Shown one piece after another: positions 1 to 7,536 of a stretch of 10,312 bases of DNA. A program made the translations under genes and the position numbers. Under the pieces are notes generated by a model. It was not told where the DNA came from. It did no database searches and saw only the letters and a program-made list of their open reading frames with translations. This DNA is from Nanobdellota archaeon (GTDB taxonomy: Archaea; Nanobdellota; Nanobdellia; Pacearchaeales; GW2011-AR1): the NCBI GenBank assembly GCA_018825865.1, contig JAHKAF010000058.1:1-10312 (forward strand). The letters run 5' to 3'. The stretch's first letter is position 1. Every line of letters starts with the position of its first letter.

Positions 1-1
1 A

Positions 2-49
2 GCACCGCTCGGTGTACCCCAAAGCACTGAATTCTGGGGCAAAGATGAT
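2..49 (+). repeat. Palindrome-rich repeat, copy A1, in the tail of the upstream CDS
   Basis: The 48-nt segment contains a perfect 5-bp hairpin (CACCG 3-7, CGGTG 10-14, 2-nt loop) and a second stem CCCCA 17-21 with TGGGG 35-39. It aligns with 2498-2563 inside gyrA at about 37 of 48 positions once an 18-nt insertion in the gyrA copy is allowed. Both copies are read in the same frame. Confidence 0.6.
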
Positions 50-67
50 AGTGAGGAGGAAGGATGA
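2..67 (+). CDS. C-terminal tail of an unidentified CDS (5' end outside window)
   Basis: This is the end of a gene whose body lies upstream of the window. The frame starting at position 2 stays open for 21 codons and stops at TGA 65-67, overlapping the next ATG (64-66) in an ATGA arrangement typical of translational coupling. The tail is acidic and ends KDDSEEEG. Residues from positions 2-49 match an in-frame insert in GyrA downstream (10 of 16 residues identical by hand, allowing one six-residue gap), which is the main reason for choosing this frame. A second frame (from position 3, stop 72-74) is also open, so the choice is not certain. Because it precedes gyrA, gyrB is a reasonable guess, but no GyrB motif is visible in these 21 residues. 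Confidence 0.5.
   Translation, partial: APLGVPQSTEFWGKDDSEEEG
53..59 (+). promoter_or_regulatory. Shine-Dalgarno sequence of the HD-domain gene
   Basis: GAGGAGG lies 4 nt before the ATG at 64, inside the last codons of the upstream CDS. It is one of the few clear Shine-Dalgarno motifs in the window and fits an internal operon gene. Genes that open a transcription unit here instead have only a TATA box about 20 nt upstream. Confidence 0.65.
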
Positions 68-628: not shown

Positions 629-3199
629 ATGACATCAAAAAACCCAAACGAAACCAACGAGAGAGCAAGAGCAAGCTCTTCCACTAGTTCGTCTCTGACG
701 AGCCAAACTAAAGGAGTAATCAACACAGAAGTATCTGAAGAGATGAGGAAAGCATACTTGGATTATGCCATGAGTGTTATTGTGTCGAGGGCGATTCCTT
801 CAATTGAAGATGGAATGAAACCTGTTCAGCGTCGTATTCTTTATGCTATGAATCAGATGGGGGTTAAGCCTGGAACACAGACAAAAAAATCCGCGCGTAT
901 TGTTGGAGATGTTATTGGTAAATTTCATCCTCATGGCGATACTGCAGTTTATGACGCAATGGTCAGAATGGCGCAGAATTTTTCTTTGAGGTATCCCTTG
1001 GTTTATGGACAGGGAAATTTTGGTTCAATTGATGGCGACCCTCCTGCCGCAATGAGATATACAGAAACGAGGCTTACTCCGATTTCAATGGAACTGCTTC
1101 AGGATATTGAAAAAGAGACTGTTAAATTTGTTCCGAATTATGATAATTCACTTAAAGAGCCTGAGCTTTTGCCTGGGAAACTTCCGACGCTGATTTTGAA
1201 CGGCGCAACAGGGATTGCAGTCGGGATGGCTACGAATATTCCTCCACATAATCTTACAGAGGTTTGTGATGCACTTATTGCGTATATTAAGAAACCTGAT
1301 ATAACTATTGAAGAACTTTGCGAGATTGTAACTGGCCCGGATTTTCCTACAGGCGGAATGGTGCAGGGAGATATGGTTGATTTATATAAGACTGGAAGAG
1401 GGAGAATGATTATGAGAGGGAAGGTTTCTACAGAGGCGATAAATAAGAAAGAGTCAATCGTGATTACTGAGATTCCTTATATGCTTAACAAAACTACGTT
1501 AGTTACACAGATAGCGAATTTGATTCAGAACAAGAAGATAAAGAATGTGACTGATTTAAGGGATGAATCTTCTAAAGGAAAAATTAGAATTGTTCTTGAG
1601 TTGAAGAAGGATACTAATTCTAAGTTTGTGATGAATTCGTTATATAAGTACACCCGCCTTCAGGATTCGTTTAATGTTAATTTTCTTGCACTGGTTGGAA
1701 GAGAGCCGAAAATTTTGACTTTGAAAGATGTTGTTGAGCAGTATGTTAAATACAGAAAGACAATTATTACTAATCGGGTTAAATTTGAGTTGAAGAAGGC
1801 AAAAGATAGACAGGAGACTGTTGAAGGACTTTTGATTGCTTTGAAGAATATCGACGCTGTGATTAAGTTGATTAAGGGTTCGAAGGGCGCTGCAGAGGCG
1901 TTGGAGGGTTTGGTGAAAACGTTTAAGCTGAGTAAAAAACAGGCACAGGCGGTTTTGGATACAAAGCTTCAGCAGTTGACTTCTTTGGAGCGGGATAAAT
2001 TAGATAAAGAATCAAAAGAATTAAAATTGAATATTGCGGAGCTTGAAAAGATATTGGGAGATATTAATGAAGTTTTGAAGATTATTGTTAAGGAAGTTAA
2101 TGAATTAAAGAAAAAGTATGGGGACAATAGAAGGACTTATGTGCTGAAAAGAATTAGTGAGATTTCTGAAAAGGATTTGGTGCAGAAGAGAGATGTTGTT
2201 GTGACTATTACTGATAAAGGTTATGTCAAGAGAATGGATGTTAAAACTTATCGGGAGCAGAAGAGAGGGGGCAAGGGAGTTATTGGAAGCGGACTGGCAA
2301 CAGGTGATTTTGTAAAGCAGTTGATTACTTGTTCAACACATGATTATTTAATGTTTTTCACGACGAGAGGGAGAGTTTTGTGGCTGAAAGCTTACGACGT
2401 TCCTTCTGCAGAAAGGTATAGTAAAGGAAAGGCAATAGTTAATTTACTTGGTTTAAAAGAGGAGAAAATTACAAATGTTATTTCAGTTAATACTTTTGCA
2501 CCGCCTGGTGTATCCCAAGAAGGGACAAGACCCCAAACTGCGGAAGGAGGGGGCAACGATGATTTATTTATGGCTACAAAGAAAGGAATTGTTAAGAGGA
2601 TTTCGTTGAAGCATTTTTCAAAACCGCGCGCGTCTGGAATTAAGGCATTGAATCTTCCGACGGATAATTCAGATTTCTTGATTGGTGTTGAAGTTGTTAA
2701 GAAAAATCAGGAGGTTTCTCTTGCGACAATGAAGGGACAGGCAATTCGGTTTAATAGCGAGGATGTTCGTTCAATGGGTCGTTCGAGTTACGGGGTCACA
2801 GGAATTAAGTTGTCTAAAGACGATGGGATTGTTGGGCTGGAGGTTTTGGATAAAGCGGCGATATTGACTATTACGAAGAAGGGTTATGGTAAAAGAACTG
2901 CAGTGGAGGATTATCGGAAAACTGCGCGTGCAGGGAAGGGTGTGATTAATATGAAAGTTACAGCAAAGACAGGAGATGTTGTGAAGACACTTTCAGTGAA
3001 TCCTGAAGAGAGCATAATTATTACAACAGCGAAGGGAATTGTGATAAGGACCTCTTTGAAGAATATTAGAGTGATGGGAAGGGCAACACAGGGAGTTAGG
3101 ATAGTGAAACTTCAGCCAGAAGATTATGTTACTGATTTGGTAAAGGTTCCTGATAATGATATTAATGGGAATGGAAATGGGAACAGCGAGGAGAAATGA
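629..3199 (+). CDS. gyrA: DNA gyrase subunit A
   Basis: GyrA cuts and rejoins DNA in the A2B2 gyrase, which uses ATP to introduce negative supercoils. The breakage-reunion domain begins near residue 30 and carries the catalytic Tyr144 in [10 protein letters not shown]. The region equivalent to the E. coli quinolone-resistance region reads [10 protein letters not shown], with Thr105 and Asp109 at the Ser83 and Asp87 positions. A coiled-coil tower follows (about 380-500), then a six-bladed C-terminal pinwheel (about 521-835). The GyrA box QKRGGKG at 544-550 marks it as gyrase rather than topoisomerase IV. Oddities are a Ser-rich N-terminal linker (13-25) encoded by two hairpins, a 22-residue insert between blades 2 and 3 (624-645), and a Gly/Asn-rich tail (846-852). 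Archaeal gyrases are understood to be of bacterial origin. The ATG at 629 follows the HD stop by one base, and no Shine-Dalgarno is evident. Confidence 0.97.
667..701 (+). repeat. Tandem hairpins encoding the GyrA N-terminal linker
   Basis: Two perfect hairpins stand side by side in the coding sequence. The first is AAGAGC 667-672 with GCTCTT 675-680 and a 2-nt loop; the second is TCGTC 689-693 with GACGA 697-701 and a 3-nt loop. The palindrome ACTAGT lies between them at 683-688. They encode GyrA residues of about 13-25, a Ser/Thr-rich stretch before the conserved domain. The core GAGCAAGCTC (669-678) recurs at 4668-4677 in an intergenic region. Confidence 0.6.
2498..2563 (+). repeat. Palindrome-rich repeat, copy A2, inserted in frame in gyrA
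   Basis: This is a 66-nt (22-codon) segment encoding GyrA residues 624-645, between pinwheel blades 2 and 3, where E. coli GyrA has a short link. It has stems CACC 2499-2502 / GGTG 2507-2510 and TCCC 2513-2516 / GGGA 2522-2525, plus a CCCC/GGGG pairing (2531-2534 with bases in the 2549-2553 G-run). It differs from copy A1 mainly by an 18-nt insertion at 2513-2530, which preserves the reading frame. Confidence 0.65.
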
Positions 3200-4717: not shown

Positions 4718-4776
4718 CTAAATAAATTGATATCAAATTTTTTACTTATAATCGTTGAGGTAACTGGACACTTCAC

Positions 4777-4868
4777 TTGTTAACAACTTTTCTTCAGCGG
4801 AGAAATCAAGCGAAGCAGATTTCGGAGCAATTAATTTGCGAACTTGTGAGCAGGTAATTTCACTCACA
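4777..4868 (+). repeat. Cluster of hairpins between the secreted-protein gene and the nuclease promoter
   Basis: Four structures follow one another: the 10-nt palindrome TTGTTAACAA (4777-4786); a 6-bp stem GAAATC (4802-4807) / GATTTC (4818-4823) with a 10-nt loop, the same geometry as repeat B1; GCAA/TTGC around TTAAT; and TGTGAG (4845-4850) / CTCACA (4863-4868). The last spans the stop codon of the minus-strand secreted-protein gene, so it could affect transcript ending. No gene is seen in this 240-bp gap. Confidence 0.5.
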
Positions 4869-6276: not shown

Positions 6277-7482
6277 TTATAAAATTTCCCCCCAACCTAT
6301 CAACCTCCAATGCCCGTCGATATTTCGCGCGATTCCTAAATTATCACCTTTGATTGCAACTATTGGAATATTAAGGGAGAGTTCAATTTCTCTGTTAGAA
6401 ATTTTCTCGACGATTCCAACAGTGATTGTCGTATTTACACTTAACATCAGCATTTCTTTTGTCTTGAATGGTTCGACAGCTTTCTGTTCTTCTGTTCCTA
6501 AAACTTCTTCAAATAATTCTGCTTTTACTTTTATCTTATTGCTTATCTCTGGAAGAGAATCTTTTGTTGAAATAATGCATCCAGTCAGAGAGTCTGTTTT
6601 TGTCATGAATGGATCTAATCCTGTTTCAATAGAGATGCTTGCCCCAGGGACAACTTTTTTCACTGATTCGTTTCCTTTGTGTAGCGAGAGAATTTTGGTT
6701 GTCAGGGTTTGGTAAGTTTTTTCATGACCTTTTTTTACACTTAATCCTGGTTTTATTTCAATTTCATCCCCTACATTTAATTCACCTTTTTTCAGAATTC
6801 CTCCAAGAACCCCCCCTTTTAATTTATCAATCTTTGTTCCTGGTCTGTTGATATCAAAACTTCTTGCAATCAGAAAGATTGGTTTTGAAGTAGAATCTCT
6901 TTTTGGAATTTCTAACTTTGTGAGTTCTTCTAATATCTTGTCTATGTTTACTCCCTGTTGTGCTGAGATTGGAATAATCGGAGAATTTTCCGCAAGAGTT
7001 CCTTTGACGAATTTTTTAATTTCTTTGTAATTTTCTAATGCCTGTTTTTTGTCTACCAGGTCTATTTTATTTTGGATTATAATTATGTTTTTTATTTTCT
7101 TAGCTTGTAGTGCCATGAAATGTTCTTTTGTCTGGGGTTTGATTCCTTCATTTGCAGCAATCACCAAGATTGCAGCGTCGATAATTGCAGCTCCTGAAAG
7201 CATTGTCGCCATAAGCATCTCATGCCCTGGCGCGTCAATAAAACTAATATATCTGATTGGCTTTCCTTTACTTTGCCCTTCCTTGGACAATGATGTAGAA
7301 TATTTATCCCCTTCTTTATAGATTGTAATATCCGCATAACCCAATTTAATTGTAATTCCTCTTTTCAGTTCTTCAGAATGCGTGTCAGTGAACTTTCCAG
7401 TAAGTTTGGAAAGGATGGTTGTCTTTCCATGGTCAATATGCCCGACTACTCCGACATTTAGTTCTGGAATTTGGTTTGTCAT
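6277..7482 (-). CDS. eif2g: Translation initiation factor aIF2 subunit gamma
   Basis: This is the GTP-binding core of the heterotrimeric aIF2, which brings initiator Met-tRNA to the small ribosomal subunit. The 401-residue frame starting MTNQIPELNVGVVG carries G1 GHIDHGKTT (14-22), the switch I RGITI (41-45), G3 DAPGH (83-87), G4 NKID (138-141) and G5 SAQ (173-175). Two beta-barrel domains follow, with family signatures such as RSFDINRPGT. The loop between about residues 55 and 77, which in most archaeal and eukaryotic members holds a four-Cys zinc knuckle, has no cysteine. The start at 7482 is preferred to an ATG 17 codons upstream because a TATA-like box lies 21 nt before it and family members begin about here. 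It is divergent from the MFS transporter. Confidence 0.95.
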   Translation of the reverse strand: MTNQIPELNVGVVGHIDHGKTTILSKLTGKFTDTHSEELKRGITIKLGYADITIYKEGDKYSTSLSKEGQSKGKPIRYISFIDAPGHEMLMATMLSGAAIIDAAILVIAANEGIKPQTKEHFMALQAKKIKNIIIIQNKIDLVDKKQALENYKEIKKFVKGTLAENSPIIPISAQQGVNIDKILEELTKLEIPKRDSTSKPIFLIARSFDINRPGTKIDKLKGGVLGGILKKGELNVGDEIEIKPGLSVKKGHEKTYQTLTTKILSLHKGNESVKKVVPGASISIETGLDPFMTKTDSLTGCIISTKDSLPEISNKIKVKAELFEEVLGTEEQKAVEPFKTKEMLMLSVNTTITVGIVEKISNREIELSLNIPIVAIKGDNLGIARNIDGHWRLIGWGEIL

Positions 7483-7502
7483 GAAACTTTGAGAATAAGA
7501 TA

Positions 7503-7512
7503 GGTTAAAAGG
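7503..7512 (-). promoter_or_regulatory. TATA-like box for the aIF2 gamma gene
   Basis: The minus strand reads CCTTTTAACC, a weaker match, with its near edge 21 nt before the ATG at 7482. It is supported mainly by having the same spacing as the other boxes. Confidence 0.45.
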
Positions 7513-7536
7513 TTTTTGGGAGTTCTTCTCCAAGAG

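Follow-up and report, generated by a model that had tools for sequence, protein, structure and literature searches.

Small palindromic elements, very probably mobile, inserted in frame into protein genes of a Pacearchaeota relative

Why does a gyrase gene carry, in its own reading frame, a hairpin-forming segment that resembles the end of the gene before it? The question is raised by the 10,312-nt contig JAHKAF010000058.1 of a Nanobdellota archaeon (assembly GCA_018825865.1), here called the window, in which a sequence-only reading had likened a segment of gyrA to the Rickettsia palindromic elements (RPEs). The analysis reported here indicates that this segment very probably belongs to a family of tiny palindromic mobile elements, non-autonomous, which enter protein genes in frame and would be translated with them. 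The parts of the window concerned, including the coding sequence (CDS) upstream, are the following.

629..3199, plus strand: gyrA, the host gene of the long copy (Pfam PF00521/PF03989; NCBIfam TIGR01063)
2499..2555 (2498-2557 in the covariance model), plus strand: element copy in gyrA, long form; net 57 nt (19 codons), phase 0; the empty site of the orthologues reads TTTTG^A
2498..2511, plus strand: hairpin 1 of the gyrA copy (GCACC GCCT GGTGT), from folding and from stem covariation over 96 copies
2513..2530, plus strand: hairpin 2, an optional 18-nt module (TCCC AAGAA GGGA CAAGA), from folding; a related 18-nt hairpin stands alone elsewhere
2531..2553, plus strand: hairpin 3 of the gyrA copy (CCCC ... 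GGGG), from folding and covariation
2..43, plus strand: short-form copy of the element (42 nt in the model), lying in frame close to the 3' end of the upstream CDS
1..67, plus strand: tail of the upstream CDS, whose stop TGA (65-67) overlaps the next ATG at 64; it seems to continue on contig C64

The two copies of the window largely correspond to their first description. An alignment of positions 2-49 with 2498-2563 has a single 18-nt gap and 37 matches in 48 positions, as had been counted by hand; the upstream copy reads APLGVPQSTEFWGKDD and the GyrA copy gives a related peptide in the same translated frame, again as claimed; and both copies (L026 and L001) fold into hairpin 1 and a CCCC/GGGG hairpin, the small hairpins already proposed. 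The extra segment of GyrA, initially placed at residues 624-645, is a real insertion, but it extends only over residues 624-642 (57 nt, 2499-2555), the trailing GATGAT being target sequence. Similarly, the tail of the upstream CDS does hold a copy of the element, but the window starts at an assembly break inside that copy. The end of contig C64 carries the same 42 nt and the same next 16 nt as the window copy at 2-43, with one mismatch, and the two (C64:17-58 and window 2-43) probably represent one copy split by the break. The part of the upstream CDS on C64 had no Pfam match.

Residues 624-642 are missing from 61 of the 63 aligned GyrA orthologue sequences, or 55 of the 57 distinct ones; the two exceptions are a sequence without coverage of the site and one in which an unrelated charged linker occupies it. 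This alignment took the loci L155-L217 and left out the more distant L218-L263 and the genomes lacking a locus. The comparison had been suggested by the sequence-only reading as a check, and its outcome rejects a conserved GyrA segment; judged from these alignments, residues 624-642 are a true insertion. The place is also short in the two solved gyrase chains compared (by sequence alignment only). The nearest relative, G001, which belongs to the same genus, is without this insert and has two other copies in its GyrA, at the N-terminus and in the middle, while the gyrA of the window is empty at the site of the mid-gene copy of G001.

The genome to which the window belongs (G000, a Pacearchaeota relative; 590,629 bp in 110 contigs, 77% complete) carries about 40 copies of the element, which is beyond chance. 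The hairpin 1 pattern GCACCGCNNGGTGTA, allowing two mismatches, was found at 34 places versus 2 for the reversed control pattern; one of the 34, in C45, lacks the remainder of the unit and is no element. BLAST with the GyrA copy recovered 17 places, 16 of them at E<0.002, and a covariance model built from 28 copies (R1) recovered 42 places at E<=1 and 40 at E<=0.01, one model place (C98:11419) being cut by a contig end. The reversed-pattern controls for hairpin 1 and for the lone-hairpin patterns discussed below reject a chance similarity, and the genome-wide search that had been proposed as a second check thus yielded many copies with common ends in unrelated genes. Five of the 42 copy places lie within 150 nt of a contig end, versus about 1.4 expected on the contigs of this genome. 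Alignment A1 of the copies omits L045 (a pattern match that is not an element) and L005, and collapses L021 with the identical copy of L020.

Beyond this genome, the element has a restricted distribution. It was found in six of 56 relatives, G000 included, in 23 of 181 genomes of the family (15 of 87 genera), and, in an even draw from the phylum, in five of 371 genomes, all five from the same family and G000 among them; the scans of 181 and 371 genomes used stricter filters, by which weak matches were lost. This patchiness suits a lineage-bound selfish element. A second copy set was assembled from 16 further genomes and contains 67 copies, after the exclusion of 7 of 74 matches that were weak (E from 8e-4 to 0.0036). 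A viral vector was rejected, two exact patterns giving no matches in viral contigs, and so were plasmid relatives, for which one query gave no match. A known RNA family was rejected, as seven sources searched at the Rfam gathering thresholds and window positions 2400-2650 searched at E<=1 gave no Rfam matches. A search for a further repeat family outside the known copies, using 14-mers in the stretches retrieved, returned only an AT-rich word in G000. One pair of copies, L093 (G000 C18:3530) and L337 (G156 C3:5019), is near-identical and shares conserved downstream DNA, with one of the two near a contig end; horizontal transfer, orthology or cross-assembly are alternative explanations of this likeness.

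The unit is a row of hairpins, made up of a 15-nt hairpin 1, optional 18-nt and 12-nt hairpins and a 27-nt hairpin 3. Copies start with (G/A)CACCGCTCGGTGTA, which forms hairpin 1, and end with hairpin 3 (CCCCAAA ... GAAT ... GGGGCAAA); the optional middle parts read TCCCAAAGAGGGACAAGA or TACCCAAAGGGCACAAGA for the 18-nt hairpin and ACCTCTTCGAGG for the 12-nt one. Lengths in the model are mostly 42 or 60 nt (range 36-105), corresponding to net inserts of mostly 39 or 57 nt. Covariation was studied in 96 copies of 42 nt (alignment A2, which omits two of 98: the window copy, kept once as its C64 twin, and the G130 copy, identical to that of G129). The two stems are paired in 95.3% of cells, and changes on both sides occur at seven of nine pairs, in 55 cells versus 10.4 in shuffles, a value reached by none of 500; sliding the partner by 1-3 columns gives 4-16 such cells. 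With compensatory changes so far above the shuffles, the hairpins are maintained, including those of copies inside genes. In six copies folded singly, no pairing was found between the two element ends, and the best fold lacks hairpin 1 in L009 and hairpin 3 in L016. A 41-nt copy outside long open reading frames (ORFs), with similar flanks in both genomes (L110:6344-6384 and L125, G001 C28:4877-4917; AAAAATCT ... GTCT.TTGTTGC; no Rfam match), possibly lies inside an unrecognised RNA.

Empty sites give the size of the insertion directly. The net gain equals the model length minus 3 at four sites: GyrA (57 nt), the middle of G001 GyrA (39), L32e (57) and G016 GatD (69). The cleanest is L32e, where G001 reads TTTTTGAAACAAAAC and G000 reads TTTTTG[57 nt]AAGCAAAAC, so that the empty site is TTTTTG^AAACAA. 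No target duplication was found at the clean empty sites of GyrA and L32e, and the family differs in this respect from miniature inverted-repeat transposable elements, which are recognised by target-site duplications and terminal inverted repeats; a short duplication-like flank (ILEVVNEV ... VLEVVNEV) was noticed around a lone hairpin in the DP2 of G000 (L109 ~4760-4860) and at no other site. The base before the element is G in 69% of 85 copies and the base after it is A in 90% of 86. This preference may partly be a constraint of the element itself, because the first base also pairs with position 14. In GatE, G000 and G013 each have an insert that is missing in the other. Several sites are common to more than one genome (L32e, L5, GatD, enolase), and the L5 copy measures 60 nt in G000 versus 42 nt in G001. 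The enolase copies lie at about the same loop in three genera, in different phases and forms (L124 in G001, L146 in G030 and L300 in G132; the first two named enolase by Pfam, the third by its flanking peptide), and this loop is either an insertion hotspot or an old site that was re-invaded.

The same DNA also occurs in unrelated surroundings. The 60-nt copies of C47 and C49 are identical and that of C39 has one difference, while their flanks, 22-38% identical over 40 nt, are unrelated; G132 contains a 75-nt nested composite twice, with one difference and again between unrelated flanks.

The relationship of the copies to the host frame was studied with frames assigned from the flanks alone, the main test taking at least 20 open codons per side; a classification by codon score (25 in frame, 3 shifted and 64 other, of 92) is too strict near gene ends, and the open-frame tests were used instead. 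None of the 42 sense copies of a length divisible by three has an in-frame stop, versus a mean of 12.7 and a minimum of 4 in 20,000 permutations, each of which shuffled the element sequences among the sites they occupy. The second set has 0 of 32 with stops versus 3.6 expected (P = 0.008), and 0 of 29 with 30 codons per side (P = 0.017). Model lengths are multiples of three in 63 of the 69 copies that have a host ORF, in 19 of 23 without one and in 61 of 67 of the second set. Depending on the phase, the same DNA gives the unrelated peptides APLGVPQSTEFGGK, HRSVYPKLRNEGAK or TARCTPNCGMKGQK-like ones. The TGA of the hairpin 3 consensus survives in 17 of 33 phase-2 copies and 1 of 26 phase-0 copies, in a table built from stop-free frames, only the flank-based tests counting as evidence; the lone phase-0 case is probably the 58-nt copy C74:20415, whose register is off. 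On this evidence the genic copies are open in the host frame and, when translated, should add 6 to about 25 residues (34 once) to essential proteins.

Of the 73 ORF references in the host list, 67 are distinct. Fifty of these ORFs were scanned with Pfam, plus four more ORFs and four lone-hairpin hosts, and a host could be named for 41 of the 50 (E<=0.001). Besides GyrA, these hosts include PolD DP2 and GatD (three genomes each), Kae1/TsaD and enolase (two genomes each), GatE (labelled GatB by Pfam and GatE by NCBIfam), the LeuRS editing domain, a TruB family protein, NifU, a class-V aminotransferase, the ribosomal proteins L5, L22, L24, L32e and S2, a DNA alkylation repair protein, a PPDK-type enzyme, topoisomerase I and primase; S27a was named among the additional ORFs. 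Many copies are close to gene ends: 35 of the 69 with a host ORF sit at most 40 codons from one. The L5 copies lie just 5' of a possible start ATG and for that reason may be untranslated. The PolD DP2 genes of G000 (L109:2896-7980) and G001 (L123:1-4371) contain palindromic elements together with an intein bearing a LAGLIDADG domain.

How could such copies arise and persist? The element inserts at G^A-like places, with no target duplication at the clean empty sites, and its lengths are mostly multiples of three; copies would persist because the host proteins tolerate hydrophilic sense peptides in loops, in linkers and at termini, and because the frame is preserved. The maintained hairpins would be the signal for a mobilising activity acting in trans. 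Most likely, though this is the least certain step, the hairpin would be recognised on one strand, either as RNA or as single-stranded DNA that transcription exposes; the sense bias and the lack of target duplication would both follow from this.

This bias is marked. Among 159 copies, those in ORFs of at least 80 aa are 113 sense and 6 antisense and those between tandem genes 14 and 3; the remaining 23 lie between convergent or divergent genes or at contig ends. With 20 codons per side the ratio is 45:11, a count that includes short chance ORFs, and with 50 codons per side it is 28:3. Stops do not cause it, because the antisense frames of the element are open at least as often as the sense frames. 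The bias might alternatively result from peptide selection and target-site skew only, the insertion itself being strand-blind, an explanation to which we give a little under even chances. Antisense peptides are indeed more hydrophobic (mean grand average of hydropathy, GRAVY, of -0.19, +0.52 and +0.02 versus -0.32, -0.70 and -0.98 for sense peptides), and the hydrophilic sense peptides may explain part of the bias; GAA outnumbers TTC in the host ORFs by 3028 to 1300 (2.3:1), which could partly explain the strand preference. Nevertheless, the target skew is insufficient taken alone (P ~1e-11 for at most 6 antisense among 119, with no correction for relatedness), and the copies between tandem genes are also mostly sense, though several of these are no more than a few bases away from an ORF. 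Wobble pairs possible in the sense RNA alone exceed the opposite kind (15 versus 6, one-sided P = 0.04), a weak signal that gives weak support to a constraint at the RNA level.

The element could also be moved as DNA, by an IS200/IS605-type Y1 transposase or one associated with repetitive extragenic palindromes, acting on single-stranded hairpins. The hairpins, the clean sites without target duplication and the preference for a short target would fit such a system, and Y1 transposases were matched twice in G000 and eight times in G022. Yet there was no Y1 match in G001 (24 copies), G013 (9), G030 (13) or G016 (1), all incomplete metagenome-assembled genomes (MAGs), Y1 is present in 19 of 50 relatives without the element, and an orientation that follows transcription is not predicted by this mechanism alone. 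We consider it unlikely. Reverse transcriptases were found in G000, G022 and G030, and none in the incomplete G001, G013 and G016. A correlation of the element with either protein was rejected since neither tracks it, a comparison that is not decisive given the incompleteness of the MAGs.

A further possibility is that no peptide is made, the element being removed from the mRNA as a mini-intron spliced at its hairpins or skipped by the ribosome as in Magnusiomyces mitochondria. In translational bypass elements the insert is skipped, which leaves frame and stops unconstrained. A row of hairpins within coding sequence, in the sense orientation, inserted exactly and without duplication at two sites in widely conserved host proteins would fit such a process. 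Removal would nonetheless require neither the frame preservation nor the stop avoidance that the present copies show, and the element ends are unpaired in the six copies folded, so that this possibility seems very improbable. Finally, old conserved linkers or a chance convergence of low-complexity coding sequence, to which the few sites common to several genomes might point, can practically be dismissed in view of the empty GyrA orthologues, the identical or near-identical DNA between unrelated flanks and the unrelated peptides that one DNA gives in three phases.

A family of mobile elements translated in frame remains the best account of these data; along with the hydrophobicity, skew and wobble results given above, several observations weigh against it. 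The copies are not all independent, owing to the sites common to several genomes and to the pair C64/C82. An in-frame stop does occur in two of the 56 copies defined by their flanks, these being antisense or of a length not divisible by three and so outside the tested class; in the second set, one of 41 copies has a stop at the looser limit of 10 codons per side (P = 0.010), and at 50 codons per side 0 of 24 gives a P of only 0.053. The translation of the inserts is read from frame and stop avoidance rather than from proteomics. The G013 GatE insert measures 12 residues in the alignment versus 13 expected, and the sites of DP2, of the Kae1 C-terminus and of the GatD N-terminal linker are too variable for the insert to be measured. 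The six copies folded singly are only 0.7-1.7 standard deviations more stable than shuffles. Lastly, no mobilising protein emerged from the two families searched, Y1 transposase and reverse transcriptase, in these incomplete MAGs.

The 18-nt hairpin also occurs by itself. Its pattern, ATACCCNAAAGGGCACNAG with two mismatches, has 15 matches in G000 and none for the control; nine are outside the long elements, six of these inside ORFs of at least 200 aa and three without a long ORF. Five of the lone hairpins in ORFs read (N/D)TLK(G/D)T(R/S), L31e, GatE and TruB being among their hosts. Seven further lone-hairpin loci were found in G030, G001 and G016: four in a sense ORF of at least 100 aa, two where the longest ORF is antisense and one without any ORF of that length. 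Among the 56 relatives, the pattern is frequent only together with the long element (15 in G000, 10 in G030, 6 in G001, 5 in G016); elsewhere, there were single two-mismatch matches in G015 and G052, and one control match in G013. The window contains an empty site of such a hairpin, in a gene that we take to be that of aIF2 gamma.

6277..7533, minus strand: gene with the empty site of a standalone 18-nt hairpin, after residue N380, near 6391-6393; the hairpin is present in relative G016

In the G016 gene, likewise taken for aIF2 gamma, the lone hairpin is exactly 18 nt, or 6 codons, and the orthologue of the window is empty after N380. Hairpins also occur within hairpins, at G000 C98:1498, L276 (a lone hairpin nested in another such hairpin), G001 C43 and C22, G030 C9:10036 and G129 C15. 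It is conceivable, though we hold it rather unlikely, that the lone 18-nt hairpins are themselves mobile and possibly the smallest in-frame mobile elements described: they would invade each other's loops, assemble into larger elements one hairpin at a time and spread by way of an RNA stage or of a sense-strand route coupled to transcription, a streamlined DPANN archaeon thereby adding peptides of whole codons to its essential proteins.

GyrA shows other peculiarities. Its N-terminal extension (window ~641-704) has no clear counterpart among 64 aligned sequences, three others having different extra residues, and the DNA of this extension contains a small palindrome (TTCGTC TCT GACGA) that is not recognised as an element copy. 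A second hairpin family suggested by it was rejected, 185,626 bp having yielded a single further occurrence of the pattern. Open frames of 1,219-1,662 aa with a GyrA match split near residue 100-175 were seen in relatives (L168, L169; genomes G019, G022, G028, G034, G037 and G040), and from their sequences probably correspond to GyrA inteins.

The comparison with known systems supports the initial likening to RPEs, through the frame-preserving lengths, the several reading phases and the stop avoidance. NCBIfam holds RPE models, and none was among the matches at E<=10 for eight host proteins. According to the available parts of PMC2229807, RPEs are repeats of 105-146 bp with terminal inverted repeats, found in frame in 19 reading frames, and an RPE-bearing Rickettsia guanylate kinase was expressed and active. 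Both kinds are palindromic repeats located between genes and in frame in conserved protein genes, but RPEs as described there have long stem-loops and terminal inverted repeats, whereas the present elements are rows of separate hairpins, mostly 42 or 60 nt, with unpaired ends, modular, nestable and down to 18 nt. Sense orientation and the lack of target duplication at clean sites further characterize the present elements. In its mode the family resembles the RPEs, without being one by sequence or length.

The sequence-only reading knew of no named archaeal equivalent; nevertheless, coding palindromes are cited for Methanocaldococcus jannaschii (Suyama et al. 2005, in the portions at hand of PMC2229807 and PMC2996958). 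From these citing descriptions only, they are likewise archaeal, palindromic and fused into protein genes. The protein-coding palindromic repeats of Wolbachia (Ogata et al. 2005, cited in the same portions of PMC2996958) are also in frame, but bacterial. PARCEL repeats share palindromic coding sequence but form tandem domains, and are absent from the archaeal genomes examined there, as far as the accessible text of PMC2996958 goes. The GC clusters (GC42) and double-hairpin elements of yeast mitochondria resemble the present family in their tiny hairpin modules, loop-concentrated changes, merging and shuffling of modules and short AG target, but the excerpts of PMC4478555 place them mostly between genes and with a putative target-site duplication, and make no mention of a preserved frame. 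The byp elements of Magnusiomyces capitatus mitochondria are also palindromic and inside coding genes, but are reported in the sections available from PMC6649704 as untranslated through bypassing, while the frame and stop evidence presented here points to translation. Among the open-licence papers of one library, none was found that describes coding palindromes for Pacearchaeota or any other DPANN group. Coding palindromes like those of Rickettsia and Wolbachia are a known kind, to which the present family adds a form built from small nestable modules.

This family extends the comparative study of frame-preserving selfish DNA to an archaeal lineage with small genomes, many of which represent different stages (gain, nesting, common sites). 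Comparing them makes it possible to test how coding palindromes move and why they fit reading frames. It is also a source of new peptide segments in ribosomal proteins, amidotransferases, gyrase and the replicative polymerase. Some assembly breaks, and some unusual loops of Pacearchaeota proteins, may be due to it. The parallel with the reduced symbiont genomes of Rickettsia and Wolbachia suggests, by analogy, a common condition in which weak selection and small genomes would favor such elements.

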